A stretch of DNA of 64,000 bases, taken from the NCBI RefSeq assembly GCF_963576615.1, contig NC_088714.1, positions 65,108,667 to 65,172,666 of the forward strand, written 5' to 3'. Below, piece by piece: positions 27,901 through 54,900 of this stretch. Numbering within the stretch: position 1 is the stretch's first letter; every line of letters begins with the position of its first letter. The notes beneath the pieces are model-generated. The model was not told the origin of the DNA. It saw only the letters and a program-made list of their open reading frames with translations, and searched no databases. The DNA is from Watersipora subatra. Lineage: Eukaryota > Bryozoa > Gymnolaemata > Cheilostomatida > Watersiporidae. A program made the position numbers and the translations under genes.

Positions 27901-30900
27901 GCAGGCTCAGCTTAATCCATTCTACAACCTGAAAACCTAATATGCAACCAGCAGTGCATATAGAAAATATTGTGGATTTGAAGGCACCAAACACTTACCA
28001 TCAGATAAGGTTGCCATATGGCTCTGCTCTTGTACAGCGTTTACACTGATGGAAAGATGACGAGGACCAAGTTGTGAGTCATGACTTCCTGTTTTGAGGT
28101 GGGAGCGTCTTGCTGTATTCAGTTTGTCTAGCTTTTGTTTTACACAGCCTCTCATGTGTTTCTCCATCGTCCTAAAACACGAAGAATTATTAGTTTAATT
28201 CTTAAAAGAATTTGGTCGCGTATCATGAGTATCTCTCAACCAAAAACCTTCATCTTAAAAAGCTCTGGCTGATTGAAATTTTCAGTGGGCCCCAAGGCTT
28301 CAGCAGGTTTGACAGATTACCAAAATAGGGTAATGTTTCTATGCTCAAAGGAGACGGAGACCAGAGTTGATGACAGTTGTTATTTGGGGCAACTAAGAGT
28401 TCCCTGTGTGACAAGAGTAGTTTTTTGAAAGATCCCTCTGTGCAAGAACAAAATGTGGAAAGACCCAGAGCTCTATAGTTTATAAACAGTCTAGCTACTA
28501 ATGTACAGTTGAATATTTCTTTTTTCCAATTGTATTCCGCTGCAAGAGTAAATTATTAGCAATTTCATACATCTTACTTTCATAAAGATTTATCATCAAC
28601 AACTATTACTTTTATTATATTTTAGTGATACCATTTACTGCTAAAAAGTTGAATAACTCGGCTCAAAATCTGATCATAAAACTAGAAAAGATTTCATTCT
28701 TGAATAATTGAGAAAAAGACTGACATAAATTTCCTTGTCTGGTTCAGCACAAAACATCAGCATTTTAGTCCACTTGTGAGGAATAGCAACGCTTCCTGAG
28801 ATTATATTTATGTATAGAAATCAGTCTAAAGCTAGCTGACTCCCGACACATGATCTTTATTATGTGAATAGTTTTGTTACAAGTTGGATGGACAACTCCT
28901 GTCATCCGCGTGGGATGCCCTAGGTATGATTTTATTAACTTTGTGGATTTGCTGAGATCTGATGTTTGGGACACAACCAACCCTCTTTTCATTTACATTG
29001 GACACGTAGAACAAGTTTCTAAATAGAGATCAACTAGACCTACTATAGTGAAGCAAAGAAAAGAGAGGGCAAAGGTCAAACTCCAAAGGCAGATCAAGGT
29101 AGAAAGCTCATGCCAGCACAGCACAGTACCAGAATTAGTTTTTTTAACAACAAATTTTTTTTATTTCACTTACATTTATTTATTTATTTTTTATTATTTA
29201 TTTATTTTTTTATTTATTTTATTTTTATAGTTTTTGTAACAATAAACTGAAAGTGTCACATCAGAATATCTGCTTATGAGAATATAACTGCTGCAGTCGG
29301 ATGTTTTAAGAGTTCCTAATCATATCTTAACCTTTATGAACTTGTAGCTTTATGACATATAAAATAAAAACAATAAATAACTACATGTTACAAATACAAC
29401 TTTGAATAGTCTGAGGTTTTATGCAAAACTATAACATAGTACTAATTTTTGGAAACATTCATAAAAAATAACCTTATTCAAATGCATCTCAACATAAAAC
29501 ATGTTAGAGTTGCTTCGATTTTGGTATCGGAATTGATATTGGTGGCGATATGGGTGTTAAGTATCTGAATCGGTATCGGCCAAACTTTTTTTGAAAAATC
29601 TGAAACTTCAGATACTTTTCACAGATCAGCTATTTAGCAGAAAACAGTATTTTAGCCTGCTACACTAATGAAAATCGTCAGCTGCGACTTTCACCTAATG
29701 AATTTCGGGCCTGCCACACAATTTATTTCATATCTATTGCTTGCTCAAAATCAACACAGCTGAGGAACTTTTTTGCTTTAGTTAAGAGGTAATCACTAAG
29801 TGTGATATTTCCCAATTACAGTGATAAGATCTATTGCAGCCAATCACGAACAAGATAGCAAAGATGAGAAACAAGAATGTCATGTAATATTTCTATTTAC
29901 TAGCATTACGAATGTAATTTAAGCAGTCGATGCATAAAGTTATCTATCACTCTTTTGATCCTGACGATACAATGTATCGTTTGTATCGTACAAAATACGG
30001 TAACCCTGGTGGCTTATCAGTATTTGGCCTGTCCTCCATCATCTGTAGCAAGTGAGTCCCTCTTCAAAACGACTGGCTATATTGATAGTGGTAGAAGAAA
30101 GAGGCTTCTTACTGAGAGAATTTAATCACTAACGGTAATTAAAAGAAACATTGAATTGCTCTAAACTTGTACAGGCGCAACAGTCCGTTCAGCAACAAAA
30201 GAGAGACTTCATTATCACAGGTAGAGAGAGCTGTACCATTAACAGTAATTACCTTTATTAATTATGAATTACAAGAAAGATTGACTGTTTTGTTACTACA
30301 TGCACGTTATGTCAGTATGTGAGTATATATAATTTTTTTCCATAAATACAAATAAATACATTAATATTCATATTTTCTTTGCATCATATTTGCATAAGAA
30401 AATGGACAATTATCTATGCAACACAAAAGATCTGAATCGGCATCTAAATCAGATTATTTTTCAATAAGAATTGGTATATCGAATCGGTATCTGAATAGGC
30501 TGGTGATTTTGGAATCGGAGCATCTCTAATAGGCCTGCATGTAGTTTAGTGTTCTCAGTGTTTGCCTTGCTACCATTTCGTTTTTTATTAAATTCTTATT
30601 ATAGCAATAGGATTATAATAAAGTAATACTTTAATTGTTATAATAGGCTATAGCAATTAAAGTATAGCATGCCACTTGATTTGAGCTTCATTTGAGCAGA
30701 ACCTTCAGATCTAGAGGCAGCGAACCTAACCATTAAGCTACACAGAATACAAGGGGTTCATTGGGCAAATATTCATTACATTGGTTAAGATACCCACGCG
30801 TAAAGCACCTGCTTGGGGTTAATAACTAGCACTGCTGAACATTACGCGTAATGATTGCTGGCCCAAAATGTTTTAGTGATGACTTTAGTAAAGATCTAGC

Positions 30901-33900: not shown

Positions 33901-36900
33901 ATTGCCACACTTCCAATACATAACCCTTTCACTTGCGTCCATGTACAAATTTAGCTATCGGCCTACTGCCAGCCATTTTGCCGATATTGCTTTATGAAAT
34001 TTTTTTCAATTTGAAACTCCATCTAGAACATTTGTTTTGGTTATATCGTAGATTTTGCCAACATTTTAACAAGCACTGCTATGCAAAAAATTAATTGTAT
34101 CTATACTTTGTGCATAGCCTCACATACTAAAGCGACGTGAGGCTACGAAGCTAAAACGATCCTCTACAATGTTCCTTATTCTTACAAAACCAATACTTTC
34201 ACCACCATCAGAGTCAGTGCTGCTATTGCTGTTTTAATTATCTGTAAAATCAGAAAAAATCTAAATCTGAATCGGCTATAATGTCATCAACATAAGTGAT
34301 TGTTTTCTAACTGGGTGGCGTTCTCAAAACTTACACAAAAATGGTTGTTTTTAAGTTGGAAATTCTCAAACAAAGGTTTAAAATTAAATTTTAGGCTAAG
34401 TTTATAGAGAAATCTTTGGACAACACTGTCACTACCATAAAAGTCTTAAAGATCATTGGTTATGTTATCAACGAATAATAAAATTCAATTACTAGCAATT
34501 GCTGGGAAAGTCGCAAAAATGTGTCTACGGCGGTCAGCCATAGAAAACGCATAAATGAGTCTACATCAGTGAAAGGGTTGAAAATGTTGAATTTGCCACT
34601 GTTTGTGATAGTAAACATGTTCATTTCTTTCCGCAGCTGAGTTACTGTTACTTTTTTTCCAGCTACGAGTACTACAGAACTACAGCTACTACAAAACACA
34701 TGGGCACTCCGAGCATTGCGATAGGCGATGGTGAGAAGAAAGCGAGCAGTGTATATTACAAAAAAGCACACCATCTCATTCACTTTTAAACTTCGGCATT
34801 GTACTGCTTTACGCTTGAAGCAGTACAATGCCTCCCAAAAAGCCTACTGTCCAAATGCAAGAACAGATTGATTCCTGTAGAGAAAGAGACCAAATTCGCA
34901 AAGCAGCAGCTAGACGAGCAGAAACTGCAGAGCAAACACAGCTACGCCCACAATGAAACAGAACTGCTACTGCAGCTGTTAGAAGTGCCGAAACTGCAGA
35001 GCAAACATAGCTACGCCTACAACGAAACAGAATAGCAGCTGCTAGAAGAGCAGAAACCGCTGAACAAACACAGCTACATCGAGAGCAGGCCAGAATAGAT
35101 TCTGCCGCTGCTAGAAGTGCAGAAACTGCTGAGCCGACCCAGCAGTGACTCAAACGGCTCAGAGCAGCCGCTACAGCGGCCAGGCGTGCAGAAACCTCCG
35201 AGCAGATGCAGCAGCAACATGAACATGATGCACTAGCTACAACAGCTGCGCGGCGAGCTGAATTTTCAGAGCAGATGACACGGCGACAACAGCAAGATGC
35301 ACTAACTACAGCAGCTGCTACCAGGCGCCGTGTATGGGCAGAAAACTTCGCACTTGACTACAGTCCTGCAACACAGTAAAGGGCCAAATTTTTTTATGGG
35401 ACGAATGTCCAAAAATGCCCCAGATGTAATGCTTTACGTTGGAAAGGCGAGAGGCCATATATGTAGTTTATATAGTAGATTTTATTGATAATAAATTTTA
35501 TCAACAACCGCATTACTGCTGCACAGTTGGTATATACCATGTCAAAACACAGGCTATAGACGAAGAACTGGTGAATCATGATTAGTGTTTCAAGCACGTA
35601 GAAGTCTCAATTCAATAAATGCTGGCGATAGCTTAGCAGTGTAATAGCAAAATATTTTCTAGAATTTCTTAAAATATGTAAAACTTTTCAATACTGCCAG
35701 TTTGAAGAACTTCAGTTTGCCTAGCAATGTCAATTTCATAATCAGTTCTGTGTACAAAATTAGGAAACTCCGATTTGAGTGGTTCGAGACTGATGCATTG
35801 TAGACTAGCTGTAAAACACATTGCATATTTCCATTGTTCTCTCCAACATTATTGACATGTACGACTGCATATGTGTATGCAGTCTGATCAGCACAAAAAT
35901 TTCAGTAGATTGAATATTTGGAGTTGTTTAACAGTATGAAAGACAACTCTCAATAAAACTATTGCTTCACGTAAATCTGTTCCCGAACACGGGTAATGCA
36001 GCTAGTGCACAATAAAATGGGGTTATAATTTTTATTGGTTGTTTTAGTCATGGGGTTTAAAGAACATGGGTGAATCAAATTTCTGAAAACACTTAGGGAA
36101 ACTGAGTAAAAAAGGTTAAGAACCCTTGGTATAGAAAGAGTATAACCTACTTGTAGACCTACATGCAAGTCATTTCATGTTAAAGCAAAGCTAAAGTCAC
36201 TTACGAAGAGTTTAAAAAAGTCGCCAGGCATATTCTGCATCGGTGTGACCCTCCATGAGTCTTCTTATGCCTTGTCAGTTTGCTAGACTGAGCACACGCA
36301 TACGGGCACTCATCACACTGAAATGGTTTTTCTCCTGTGTGACTTCTTCTGTGCACTTTTAGGTTACTTTTGTTGGTAAAGGTCTGAAACAACCGTTGAA
36401 AACTTGTGGCCTGTGTTCTATGATGACATCCGAGGAGTAGCGTCCTTACCACCCTCTCAGTAAGTGGATATAGAACTTTAAACAAAGAACAACTACAGAT
36501 ACTGATCTGATTTTCACAACCTTGAACTCTGTGATAGATGTCTAGTTTTTTCAATAGGTACCCATTAGCGTTGCTTCTTTTCAAAGTTAGTGAAAATGTA
36601 TTTTGATCTCCTTGGTCAACTCTTGTTATTCAAAGGAATGTTTCACATAATTGCAATATACTATATATTTGTAAATGCACTTCCAGAGACAGCAATGCAG
36701 CTGGCCTTCCATACCAAAGATGCTTTTTAAGCACATCAGAAGAATGTGTAGCATACATGTATAATAAATGTATTAATATATATCATAAAGTAAGTGTAAT
36801 AATATTATATTACAAGGTTTATAATTTACCTTTTGGCAACTTCAACAGTATTACCAATAAAGTGTTTAAGCTGATCTGTACTACAATAACATAACGTACA

Positions 36901-39900
36901 ATGCAATGCAGTGCAGCGTGTATAACATACATACATACAGTCACTCCTATAATGTAAAACTCATTTTATGTAAACTCCACTTAACCTAACGAATTTATGT
37001 AAAGTTTTGGCTTCCAATTGCATAAAAAATTTTGTATGACATAAAGAGTCAAGTCTGTGCAAGTTCTCAAATCTGATTTGATTATCGATAGTCCAAAAGT
37101 TAGCCTTAAAGTATCAGCTTCTCCCTTGCCGTACTTGGGAGAGAAAATGACGTATATGAGTATTTCTATTATATTATGCTAGTACCCTGACATATAGGGT
37201 ATCTCCATTATATTATACTAGTACCCTGACATATAGGGTATCTCTATTATATTATACTAGTACCCTGATCACAGCTATTCAGTTACACCTGTACAGTTAC
37301 ACCTGTACAGCTATACCTGTAAAGTTACACCTGTACAGTTACACCTGTACAGTTACACCTGTACAGTTACACCTGTACAGTTACACCTGTACAGTTACAC
37401 TTGTACAGTTACACCTGTACAGTTACACTTGTACAGTTACACTTGTAAAGTTACACCTGTACAGTTACACCTGTACAGTTACACCTGTACAGTTACACCT
37501 GTACAGTTACACCTGTACAGTTACACTTGTACAGTTACACCTGTACAGTTACACCTGTACAGTTACACTTGTACAGTTACACTTGTACAGTTACACCTGT
37601 ACAGTTACACTTGTACAGTTACATTGTACAGTCATTAAATTAAAGAGTTAGGTATGTTTGTTTTCCTTTTTGAGAGGCCAAATGAGTGAGTTTGGGAAGA
37701 TCATGGAATGTATTAGGCTATTTACACACGTTTTATGCTTCATAGAACAAGCATTTTCGGAATAAATTTTTTATGTTGCAGGAGCGTCTATTGTATTTCT
37801 CTTATTCTTGCTTTTTGGTGTACCCTTATGCCATTTGTATGTCATTATGTACCATTTGTACGGGTCTAATGTGAAGAAAAATGTAGTGACCCTTACAAAG
37901 ACAATGTTTTGGCTCGAGTCGAGTAAAAACAAAATTTCAAGTGATAGTATGCAAGCTCACCTTGCCACAGAATTCACACTGGCCAGATTTGAGAGGAAGC
38001 CTGGCAGCTGAAGGTCTGTAAAACTGTAGAGTGAGATCGGCCGCAGACACACTGTTCGGGTGAGGCAGTAGAAAATCTCTAACTGCAGCATTAGCTCTCA
38101 AGTCGGCAGCATCTTCAGCATTCAGAGTTCCATGGACCATCCTCGAACCTGTAAAAATGGTCAGAAATATGGTGTCACACAGAAACACTTGGATAGTAAA
38201 TCATAAAAATCCATATTTTCATGTATAAATAAAAACTAATTAGATACTACAATTTAAATAAACTAGCTAATAAAATTTATACCTAAAAGGAGCCCTTTTT
38301 GCAGTACTACTACTACTACTACTACAAGCTACTACTACTAGCTACTACTACTAGCTACTACTACTACTAGCTACTAATACTACTACTACTACTAGCTACT
38401 ACTACTACTTATACTACTACTACTAGCTACTACTACTAGCATAGTTTCATATGCTGACTTACAGTTTAGGCCAAGATCATCGCTGATCTGACGTCGGAAA
38501 TCACCGAAAGGAGGGCAGCCAGTTTGCTGACGGAGAAGAAAATGAGCGAGCATAGATTTGCTGTCACTGTTTGATCTGCTTCTGAACAAGCCTGCATTGC
38601 ATAAGAACAAGCCCGCATTACTTAGGAACAAACCTGCATTACTTAGAAACAAACCTGCATTGCATAGGAGCAAACTTGCGTTACTTAGGAACAAACCTGC
38701 ATTGCCTAAGAACCAATCAGCATTACTTAGGAACAAACCTGCATTGCATAGGAACAAACTTGCATTGCAAAGGAACAAACCTGCATTGCATAGGAACAAA
38801 CCTGCATTGCACAAGAATAAACCTGCATTGTACAGAAAAGCATGCCTTTTTTCCGACTTTCAAAGACTGTCAAATTTAAGGCATGCAATCCACACACCTA
38901 TTATTGTGCCAAATAGGCATTTGTATTAATTTTATGAACAATTGATGTCAAATAATACATTTTTAAAAGATTACAAACTATACTAAAATAACAATAAATA
39001 ATGAATAATTTATTTAAAACAACATATCTTAAAGTAACCAATTCTGCTGGGTGAGTCATTTGAATGGATCACCTGATTTAGGATGTATCAGTATTCTACC
39101 AATATAGTGAAAATACAACTACACCTTTTCCAAATATGTGTGTCAAGAAATCTTACAGATCATTTGATCTCTATAATAATGCCCAAACTTTTTAATCACA
39201 TCATTATATAAACTATTGTTAACTGGAGGTGCTAAATTTATGTGAACAATATTAAAATAGTTATTAGTTTATCAATGTAAGCACTTCTCTGGCAAAACCT
39301 GACTTTTCAATGAGCTTTGCAACACATTGTTGTCACTAACAGTAAACCTTATGCTCCAGCCTCCACTCAGATGTTTTTGAGAACTATTTTTCAATGGAAA
39401 CATGCGGAATAAAGCCCGAGTTGTACAGCTAAAGGCTCCCTGTGAGTTTTATATAGTTTTTGTTGCTCAAAGCTGAGTTGTTTCAAATGCTTACCTGCTG
39501 TTTCAAATAAACATGGTCTGGACCTAGTATTATGAGAAACACACTCTTTTAGAAGTACCAACTTATAAGAATCTGTAAGTCACATATCCTGCTGCTTAGA
39601 GTCTGTGATGATCTAAATTTACTGTTGAACTGTTTACAGCTGTTAAACTTTTACTCTTTTCAAATTATAGTATTTAACGCTTTCGAAAAATCCAATTTTT
39701 GACAAAAATAATAAGAAATTTAGCAAAGATGAAAAGTGTAAAAACAAGGAAATGCTTTACACAACTGGACATCCAGGAAATCAAAGGAGAGTGACTACGA
39801 GGATAACCACAAGTATGTGTTAGTGATAGCCCGGGCTGTGGAGATCAGTGAAAAGTGTGGGAACAACACACCATTAATCATACTAACACTAGTTGGTGCC

Positions 39901-42900
39901 AAGAGCCACCGTCACATTGCAGGTTTAGCTGTATTTTGCCCATTGTAGCTGTGTCAGTCCTGAACTGGTGAGGTGTTGAAATGTCAACTATCAAATATTT
40001 TTTCAGTATTCTCTAGGCTCTAGCAAATAAATTTTAGCCTTAGCTATATTAAAGCTATATTGGTTATTCCCATTGCAGGGTGCTTATCTTTCAGACCTTT
40101 TTTTAAAAATCTTGCTGCCAAAGATAAGCTGAAAGCATTTTTTATTAGCTAATGACGGATGAGGAACTATGGTTGTCTATAAAGTTTGCTATAGTGAACA
40201 ACTTGGCAAAAGAAAAATCTACACTCACATATACCAAAGAAATTACTTTCTTTTCCTAAAGTAAATCTATATTAATAATATAGCAATTATAATAAGATTC
40301 AATTGTACGATTTGTAAAATGTTGCAATCAATCACAGATTTCTGAATCTTTGTATTGTAAGAAAGGGATGATTTATAGCTGCCAGTAGCCAGCAGGTGAT
40401 TGATTTAACTGAATAGGAAGTGACAGGAAGTGACATGTATGTTAAGGCAATATCAGATATCAAATGTTAGCCTGTAAACCGACGCTCTCATAATTTTTAC
40501 TGCTTTGCAATCAAGCTATTGAGACACATAAAAAACAAAGCGTGTTTGACCATATTTAGAGTGTGCGGTTTTATATTTAGACGCTGCCTGTAAACAAGTT
40601 GAAACTTCTTTCTGGTTTTTTTCAGGTTTTAGAATTTGTGATGGAAACACTTGTAAATAAAAGCATCTGTATATCTAGCCATAGAAGTATACTTCAAATA
40701 TCTGTATACCTACCTAGCCATAGAAGTATACATCAAATATCAGCAATTATCTCTTTTGATTTTTATCTAGAATTTTTTGATCTTAAATAAAAGATAGTAT
40801 TTATGGATTACAAACTGTTATAATACATTTTATTATATTATAGTATAATATATTATATGTTATATTATCCTATATTAAATTATTATTTATGGTTATTCAT
40901 GAATATTACTATACTTGAAGGGTATCTATTTATCTAAATCTCTTACGTGATGTAATTTTTTGATATCACAGTCTATATCACAAGCTATATCGCAGGCTAT
41001 ATCGCAGGCTATATCACAGGCTATATCACAGACTGTATCACAGGCTATATCACAGGCTATATCACAAGCTGTATCACAGACTATATCACAAGCTATATCA
41101 CAAGCTATATCACATGATATATCACAGGCTATATCACAGGCTATATCACAAGCTGTATCACAGGCTATATCACAAGCTGTATCACAGGCTATATCACAGG
41201 CTATTTCACAGGCTATATCACAGGCTATATCACAGACTATATCACAGGCTATATCACAGGCTATATCACAAGCTGTAGCACAGGTATATCACAAGCTGTA
41301 TCACAGGCTATATCACAGGCTATATCATAGGCTTAAAGAAAAAATAATGGCTTTGAATGTTTACAATCAAACAACGTTTGTTGTTTGACAACATATTTAG
41401 TTAAATTACCATCATTATAGTATTCAATTGTATATTTTATTTACAACTATATGAAATATTTAAGTCAAATCATAGCATGCAGGTTAGTGCCAAGTATCTC
41501 TTTGTACAGACATATAATCTACTGCTGCCACTACAGACATATAATCTACTGCTGCCACTACAGACATGTAATCTACTGCTGCCACTACAGACATGTTTAG
41601 TTAAACAGCTGCCATTAGATAGTTTTATTAGCTATGTTTTAGAACAAAAGTAATTCTATAAAAGCCACTTATCATTTTATAATTTTGCCTTAATTAACAC
41701 CATTTTATAAGGCTATGTTTATTTTGGTGTAATTTCTTTAAATATTCCAAGTCAAATATGTTTACCTCAATGAAAATTTAAGCAATCTAGCATTGCAAAA
41801 AATATTGAAATTTAGCAGTAAAATCTGACGTCTGCATGAAAGCATGATGTAAGTATCCTAGGCATTCTCTATGGCTATGAGTTTATAAGTCTGATCACTC
41901 ACCTGTTCGCTGCTGCTTGGAGTTGTCACTTCCTGTAATGCCAGCTGATCCCTTAACTACCTGCACGAATAGTAACAGTAAGATCGATGCAACATCAAAC
42001 TAATAGCACTCAAGGCCGTGTCACAGACAATAATATCAATAATAATATCTGATTTCTGTATTAGGTTGCCAAATTGACATTTTAGGCCAAAATAATTTTT
42101 ATTAGCAAAATAAATTGGTAATTAAGGAAAAAGGTTTTAGATTGAAATTCTGCATAAAGTGCATTTAACAGCAAAGGTTCTTCGGCCACTAGGCTACTAC
42201 AATGTAGAGAGAAATTGCTTATCATCTCTCTCTTTTAAAAAGAGTAAATAAAAGCTAATTATTAATATAGCAATTATATTAAGATTTAATGGTACAATTT
42301 GTAAAATTTTGCAATCGATCACAGAGTTCTGGATTTGTGTCCTCTCAGCTGTTTTAACTACTAGTGTAGACAATATTGCTCAGTCAGATTGCGCTAGAGC
42401 CTCCTGTCACTTTCTGTGTATGTTGAGCTGTTACTAAAATTTTTATAAATAGTAAAACCATGTCTAACAAAGGATTGTTCAGTATTTTTAGGGGAAATCA
42501 GTAGTAAATGTACGAAAAACCTAGATTTCTGGCAGCTCACTAACATGCTATATTGTTTCAATTTTGACTGAGGGCATTTTGAATTCTTTGCTTCTTTTAA
42601 CCTTGAATAGACTTAATCTGCAAAGCTTGCCAAGATAAACTGGTGAATAAATCCTTTTTGTATTAGGTGCTGCCTTAAAGCTTTCTGCATTAGGTGCTAC
42701 CTTAACCCTTCCTGTATTAGGTGCTGCCTTAACCCTTTTTGCATGGGATGATGCCACATAACTAAAGACTTGTTGCCTCCTAATTTAATCTGCAAACTCA
42801 GCTGTCACCTAAATGTCAGACAAGCTAGACAAGCAGTCTTTAGAGAAGGCTAGCCTTAGCCTTAGTTTCTATATCTATACGGGAACATACCCTAGTACTC

Positions 42901-51900: not shown

Positions 51901-54900
51901 CTGCGAATTTATATATTCCTCCAGTTCTAGACTATTTGAATTTAAATTTAATTCCTTGTTTTTTAATTAGTAATTAAAAATCTATATGTGTTGACTATCA
52001 TGCTATGCAGCTATTAATAGAACTCTCGTAAGTTAGGATTTGTACCGCTCAAACAGCAGGTCATCATTAGCTACGCTATAAAAATTTTATACTAAAAGCT
52101 CACAAACTTGTTGCTTGTAGAGAAATTTATATTGATGGATCTGTAGATAGTTTCTAAACCACCCTTATAATGATTTTTCGCACTTTAATAGTCATCACAA
52201 ATCAGAGTATTTAGAAACTTATCACTGGATGTTAAACCTGCAAGTTAATACCCTGAGACTTCGTCAATAGTCCTTCAGAATTCGGGTCAATAGAAATTCA
52301 AACAGAAAAATTATTTTATCAAAAGTTTTGAAAATTAATTAAGTCGTTATTCATTTTATGGCGATACCAACAACAAAAAATAAAAATGGGATCTACATAG
52401 TATTTTGTCACAAATTGCCAGCTCATAGCTTAGTTTTTTCAGAATTTTTTGAAGGATCATAAAACAAATAAAAGCTCTGATGGATTGTGTAAATTCATCT
52501 TTTTCTTGCTTTCTACCATTTTTATTATTTGTTTGAGCAGATATTTTTTTCACAAATGATAGATAATGACACCTAATGACAAGTGACAACAACCAATGAC
52601 AGATGCTGACACCTAATGACAGGTGACAACAACCAATGACAGATGATTACAACCAATGACAGGTGATGACCAAAGCAAATCACCACTGGCCAACTTTCAA
52701 AGCAAAGTTTATTCGTAATAGTGTAAGTTAAACTAAAATGGTTTCCCGATGTAAGCGTACATACAATGAATAACATATATGTTATTATGACTGATGGTTT
52801 AAGCTGTGGAAGTCATCGCATAGTATTTTACTGGCTTCCTTAAGTTAACCTTCAGCAGTACCTAGCAATAGTTTCAAGTAATTCTACTAGGCAAATGTCT
52901 GCTAAATAAGGCCTTGCCAACCCTGCAAGGACAGTCTTAACTGCTAACAACACTGTAATAGCAATTTGAAAAGGTTATTTTCAGTATATCTCCAGGTGAA
53001 AGACAAGCTATTTTTTATCAGCGATGCATTTATAAACTCACCGTGGGGAAGAACTCTTTGCAAGTATTGCTGTCGGTTGTGAGAGTGCTGCCTGTTGCTG
53101 AGGAAAAGTGATTTTCATTTTCTCTTGAAGAGACAGATGTGTTTGTCTTTGCGGAAGAGCTGCAATAAATGCTGGTCTTCGAAGAAAGGAAGGCGCTACC
53201 ATTTGTATGAGAACTGTGAGGGTTGATGACTGTAATATCAGAGTCACTCCCATCATCTCTTGCTCTACTGAAGACTTCTGCAGCAAAGAGCCACACAATA
53301 TACAGCAAAGCAAATTAAAATATCTATCAATAAAATGATAAATGATATCGGAAAGTTATGTTACCAGTGGCCACTAACAGGTTTAGCGGCAGTTAGCGGT
53401 TTACTAAGCAGAGCTTAACAGATGTCATGAGATTACAGGTTCTAGACCAGCCAAAGATTCTTAACTTTTCTAGATATTTTGAGCGAGTTAGCTATTCTTA
53501 GTTATAATTTTTCAGTAAATTCTACTAACAGGAAAAAAATTTTTCTAATCTAGAATCAGCTTGCAGGCAGGAAGTTCTCTAATAAAGCATAATGCATTCG
53601 TCTGGCAAACCTTGCCAATGACATTCCTGCCTTATCAAATGACCAGATTAAAACCTGTGGGGGCTACGTGTACTCTTACATGCCAGAGCCTTAAAACCAA
53701 AGGTAGTTTTTAAAGAAGCTCCTTAACCACAGCCCTCCCTTTCATCTCAATAGCCGGTGAATCTGATTAGACAAGTCCAACCAGTCACATTAGCTAAGCA
53801 ATGGAAGTAAATGTGGGAAGTAAATGGAACAACATTCAGCCATTCAAACTGTCATTCTTTAATGTTATCCGCAATTATTTCAATATAATGTTATTATTAC
53901 AGGGTGATTGTGACCGCAACCGTATTGATATGTGGGTTCTCTTGCAGCAATCAGATGCAGGCATTTGCAACCTTCTTACAACCTTCAAGTTAGTTTGAGT
54001 CATTAGCTCTGAAAAATATTTTTGCCATAGGCAGTTAGTTACCTCTTGAAATAATGCTTTTATCTTAAAAGAGTTTCTTATCTAATTGAAACTATCGGTA
54101 GAATATTTGTTAGGCTTATTCCTCAATAGGACATTGGATGGCAGCTTAATGTGCTAGCAGCGCTGCCTCTATCCAATGCTGCCTCTATTCAATGCTGCCT
54201 CTATGCAGAGCTGTCTCTATGCAGAGCTGCCTCTATGTAGTGCTGACTCTATGCAATGCTGCCTCTCTGTAGAGCTGCCTCTATGTAGGGATGTCTCTAT
54301 GCAAAGCTGCCTCTATGCAGAGCTGCCTCTATTCAGTGCTGTCTTTATGCAGAGCTGCCTCTATTCAGTGCTGTCTCTATGCAGAGCTGCCTCTATGTAG
54401 TGCTGACTTTATGCAGTGCTGCCTCGATTCAATGCTGCCTCTATTCAATGCTGCCTCTATGCAGAGCTGCCTCTATGCAGTCGGCCTCTATGCAGTGCGG
54501 CCTTTATCCAGTGCTGCCTTTTTGCAGTCTAGTCTTTATCCAGTGCTGCCTCTATGCAGTGCTACCTTTATCCAGTGCTGCCTCTATCCTGCACTACTGA
54601 GCATTGACAACCGTTTTGATATTTAGTAAACTCTAGAGCTGTGAGAATGAGAGCTGTCTATTGATTATATTCCTCACGCCAATCATAATTTGTAAACAAA
54701 AGAACAAAAATTCGAGTTTTTTCTTATCAAGCTAAATGAATATAACATAAGCTGAAAACTACAGTTCTATAAAACTGAAGTATGTGATAGACTGTGGCCT
54801 TTAAAATCGCATTGATCAAAGTCTAGTCTATACTGCGAATGATTCCCGAACACAAACATAGCCTGGGATAAGTTTAGAGATTATAAATTGTAATAGCTTT

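Follow-up and report, generated by a model that had tools for sequence, protein, structure and literature searches.

A 21-bp minisatellite probably lies over the 3' splice site of a BCL11-like exon and offers several spare in-frame acceptors in the bryozoan Watersipora subatra

Tandem splice acceptors of the NAGNAG type consist of neighbouring AGs 3 nt apart, the choice of which alters the protein by whole codons. Splice signals can also be multiplied by longer repeats: in the portion of text available from PMC4526556 (citing Turri 1995), the minisatellite of IFI6 (6-16/G1P3) provides multiple splice donor sites, with three mRNA species. In the Rlec lectin genes of Macrobrachium nipponense, a coding exon contains tandem repeats of 30/33 bp whose number varies, and the alternative acceptors described in the accessible part of that account lie in other exons, outside the repeat (PMC7536079). 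The locus presented here has features of each of these systems. Like the Rlec genes, as far as the accessible text describes them, it ties tandem repeats to a coding exon. In common with what the available text says of IFI6, it combines a minisatellite on an exon edge (a predicted one in our case) with units bearing a splice signal, which is in frame in 8 of the 12 units; whereas IFI6 offers donors and three mRNA species, the array would offer acceptors, as predicted from genomic sequence. We regard IFI6, by analogy and within the limits of that text, as what may be the nearest precedent, of which our array would be the mirror case. As in NAGNAG sites, the AGs of the array would change the protein by whole codons, but their spacing is 21 nt rather than 3 nt and extends over 12 units, which places them outside the NAGNAG class. 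In a literature search of open-licence PMC text, no report of a minisatellite supplying acceptors was recognised.

The window, that is, the whole stretch of 64,000 nt that was analysed, was extended by 100 kb upstream, so that 164 kb were examined in total. Two BCL11-like genes are arranged in tandem on the minus strand (contig positions 65136666-65217944): gene B, the gene of the window, and gene A, upstream of the window. The assignment of gene B to the BCL11 type, already made in the first-pass annotation, agrees with its C-terminal finger triplet (ZF4-6), which is split across exons B4, B5, and B6 and shows 61% identity to human BCL11A across 61 alignment columns, and with an N-terminal CCHC-type finger at 81460-81374 (E=1e-6). 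PDB matches of the triplet include BCL11A, with other C2H2 proteins scoring higher. Gene A likewise carries a CCHC finger and a finger triplet, and also an MSRRKQ start. Within the 164 kb, the MSRRKQ motif occurs solely at 109278, where it fits gene A, and is absent for gene B; likewise, no second pair of fingers (ZF2-3) was found in either gene. Given that neither the MSRRKQ exon nor the ZF2-3 pair was found for it in the 164 kb, we name gene B BCL11-like only. A single-finger exon, missed by the human ZF1 query, is common to both genes (E=1e-4 in a comparison of open segments). Exon phases, obtained by checking exon ends and lengths and reading the frames by hand, are identical in genes A and B: 1-1 for the CCHC exon, 1-1 for ZF1, and then 1-0, 0-1, 1-1, 1-0, and 0-2. 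This common chain supports exon B3 and requires a phase-1 acceptor for it.

Table 1. Exons of gene B, splice-site candidates and tandem arrays around exon B3. Acceptor and donor scores, here and throughout the text, are based on human splice matrices.
Feature	Position	Strand	Properties
Exon B_CCHC	end 81256	minus	phase 1-1
Exon B_ZF1	end 70864	minus	phase 1-1
Probable exon B1.5, 236 bp	53042-53277	minus	phase 1 to 0; from the exon-chain search
Exon B2, 58 bp	41903-41960	minus	phase 0 to 1; donor score 13.3, top 0.013% of the window's GTs
21-bp minisatellite	38584-38830	minus (coding sense)	TRF: period 21, 11.8 copies, 82% matches, 0% indels
Eight further in-phase AGs	38633-38824	minus	exon starts 38822, 38801, 38780, 38738, 38705, 38696, 38654, 38633, adding 77, 70, 63, 49, 38, 35, 21, 14 residues
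AG of the favoured acceptor, exon start 38591	38592-38593	minus	score 7.68, top 1.89% of 20637 AGs
Exon B3, 129 bp, if the last array unit is the acceptor	38463-38591	minus	phase 1 to 1
Acceptor-like AG inside B3 (first base after it)	38526	minus	score 11.5, top 0.12%, strongest AG
Donor GT of B3 (AACT|GTAAGT)	38461-38462	minus	score 6.2, top 4% of the window's 7466 GTs
Second tandem array, TAG-rich on the coding strand	38305-38440	minus	TRF; begins 23 bp downstream of the B3 donor
Exon B4	37961-38148	minus	phase 1 to 0; ends in the first half of a zinc finger (CEFCGK)
Exon B5	36205-36383	minus	phase 0 to 2; BCL11 fingers 4 to 6
Exon B6	28001-28171		placed without 3' end; minus strand; completes the last finger

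B3 is probably a genuine exon, with the same predicted 1-1 phase as its counterpart in the tandem paralog. Of 4271 open windows outside exons, 2.5% attain its leave-one-out codon score of 0.239 per codon; the two alternative frames of this stretch yield 0.025 and 0.050. The codon model is moderate, as 6.8 to 11.3% of windows match the homology-supported exons A5, B5, and B6, and B2. B3 bears a weak resemblance to the paralogous exon A3 (local p=0.019, global p=0.055), the A3/B3 score being equalled by 49 of 2943 random open segments locally and by 77 of 2943 globally; B2 and A2 share no sequence similarity (p=0.55). In an exon-chain search whose codon model had the middle exons withheld from its training, B3 starting at 38591 belonged to the best chain under each of six penalties. 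At penalty 25, the chain of gene B comprised 53277-53042, 41960-41903, and 38591-38463, and at penalties 19 and 22 that of gene A comprised 92792-92644, 92527-92446, and 92206-92045, in both cases with phases 1-0, 0-1, and 1-1. Additional exons enter the chain as the penalty is lowered, including two inside the array at penalty 10; gene B acquires two more exons at penalty 22, and gene A is reduced to A3 at penalty 25.

The earlier description of a 21-bp array adjoining this exon is confirmed by TRF and by the unit pattern, which has 12 sites in the window, all of them within the array (shuffles give a mean of 0.24). The array ends inside B3, with which it shares 8 bases (38591-38584) rather than the ten initially thought to be repeat-derived. 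On the minus strand the consensus unit is GGTTTGTTCCTATGCAATGCA, translated as GLFLCNA in the frame of the exon. This frame is indeed open throughout the array, as had been stated, with zero stops versus five in either of the remaining two; on the plus strand, two frames out of three are open too, and under the observed changes a stop-free frame has P=0.59. In TRF, 0% indels are likewise seen for several further arrays of the window. The open frame and the absence of indels, considered as a sign that the array codes, were rejected on these grounds, and neither stands out in a region with 13% minisatellite content. Overall, 45 arrays (≥5 copies, score ≥150) make up 13.2% of the 164 kb, and 9 of 90 array-strands, ours among them, carry at least three AGs scoring at least 7; finding one that covers a splice site is therefore no great surprise in this region. 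Among the 16 placed exons of genes A and B having an acceptor (the start exon A_N is excluded), B3 alone has an acceptor that falls within an array. When the array plus B3 was searched against the 784-Mb genome, with very common words skipped, the single match returned was the query itself. The sole Pfam candidate for the same sequence, RRP40, was sub-threshold (E=0.023), fell within the array, and was discarded as implausible. Exon B3 has arrays on both flanks, the second one lying beyond its donor.

Between 38900 and 38463 there are 27 AGs, of which 18 lead to a stop in the B2-B3-B4 join and nine leave it open. These nine are exactly the in-phase AGs of the array, so that any in-frame junction between B2 and B3 has to draw its acceptor from the array. 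As judged from the sequence, the repeat probably lies over the 3' splice site of B3 and would provide its acceptor plus several spare in-frame ones. We lean towards a history in which the array overran an ancestral acceptor, the last unit (38591) splices B3, and the upstream units are latent. A locus-specific minisatellite would have expanded across the 3' end of the intron preceding B3; its last unit would now contribute the polypyrimidine run and the AG, and the units upstream would be latent copies of this signal, with eight more in-frame AGs. We infer that B3 is spliced from 41903 to 38591, that an older acceptor was overrun, and that splicing to the other units is rare or absent. The 41903/38591 junction is in frame by its phases and its open join, as had been proposed. 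Total exon scores (codon plus splice) place 38591 first with 27.1, ahead of 38633 and 38654 (both 23.0) and of 38822, the lowest array start (14.4), the fall along the array partly reflecting near-identical units being counted repeatedly. Two out-of-phase starts, 38581 (24.3) and 38526 (23.8), come close behind. The former (TTCAG|AAGCAG) had been put forward as a candidate acceptor that would speak against the repeat; its phase does not fit, and a join to it runs into a stop. With 38591 as the sole acceptor in use, the length of the array would have no effect on the protein, and the locus would still be a clear case of a splice site derived from a fast-mutating kind of repeat.

The best-surviving alternative, which we consider rather unlikely, is that several units serve as alternative acceptors, yielding isoforms with 0 to 11 hydrophobic heptads in a range that varies with array length. 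In its favour, six array AGs, all in phase, have nearly equal scores (7.68 to 7.92 for starts 38822, 38801, 38780, 38738, 38654, and 38591), within the range of the other 13 scored acceptors of genes A and B (-1.6 to 11.3); starts 38696, 38633, and 38705 score 5.89, 5.27, and 4.40. CTAA sites are located 31 nt above both 38591 and 38654, and branch-point-like sites occur above the array (38870 among others) as well as inside it (38727, 38717, 38685, 38643, and 38622 among others). Joins to the spare units stay open, and the first-pass annotation was right that other units preserve the frame: this applies to eight units and to the AG of 38705, with in-register units adding multiples of seven residues. 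Its statement that most units carry an AG stands for 8 of the 12, in which CAG|G is in register (38591 and seven of the eight spare starts, 38705 being in phase but outside the unit register). It fails for two units (38758 and 38674) in which an AAG one base off shifts the frame and the joins reach stops, and for two without an AG at the register position. Four of 12 units thus lack an in-phase AG, which counts against the use of many acceptors, as does the variation between units: across 11 full units and 21 positions there are 25 differences, 4 of them at the two AG positions, above the average of 2.4 expected. The AGs show no more conservation than the other positions of the unit, and selection for many acceptors is not indicated. 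Given these equally variable AGs and the first rank of 38591, the proposed use of spare units in splicing is unsupported. A working ladder, in which cells sample several units and array length between individuals shifts the range of isoforms, seems to us unlikely on the sequence at hand; if it were used, minisatellite length polymorphism would alter a developmental transcription factor in seven-residue steps without a frameshift.

Many units in 38591-38824 read CAG|GTTTGT on the minus strand and are both acceptor-like and donor-like, one such junction scoring 5.8 as a donor. Recursive splice sites likewise resemble acceptors and donors at once. On the ladder reading, whole units could even be spliced out within the array via these junctions.

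Very unlikely, in our estimation, is that the array is plain intron, either because 38526 is spliced from B1.5 with B2 skipped or because B3 is no exon at all. The AG of 38526 outscores that of 38591 (Table 1), the phase 0 of this start fits the end of B1.5, its total score is the one given above, and the join of B2 to B4 without B3 is also open. Joining 41903 to 38526 meets a stop. Two other exons of gene B, B_ZF1 (12.0) and B_CCHC (10.8), carry internal AGs above 10 that beat their own acceptors; such decoys are common here, and 38526 is weakened as the true start of B3. Codon scores, too, are high on both sides of 38526 (0.337 and 0.290), although the first 13 codons of B3, above the pyrimidine stretch and without it, reach just 0.177 per codon.

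Least probable is a reading in which 38822, as the first AG of the array, serves as the acceptor and every transcript has the entire array translated: a branch-point-like TTGAC at 38870 has 38822, 48 nt away, and not 38591 as the first CAG below it, and unique unit differences are skewed towards synonymous ones (10 of 16 versus 6.4 expected, P=0.034), but this signal is fragile (P=0.035 for all differences in the exon frame, P=0.085 in the TRF register), and the array has a codon usage unlike that of exons (-0.305 per codon) and its lowest total score at this very start. For calibration, 2.1% of 48 frames from eight other arrays reach P=0.035.

Further repeats and remnants are present in the window. 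By eye, similar stretches occur in the introns around B2 (~42250-42335 and ~40260-40350), perhaps an interspersed repeat. About six decayed 69-bp (23-aa) repeats with internal stops lie on the plus strand at 34900-35320; we take them to resemble STPR-type repeats. On the minus strand, a zinc-knuckle-like reading frame at 2320-2565 (CGRCGYLTHTRGTC) is perhaps the remnant of a retroelement.
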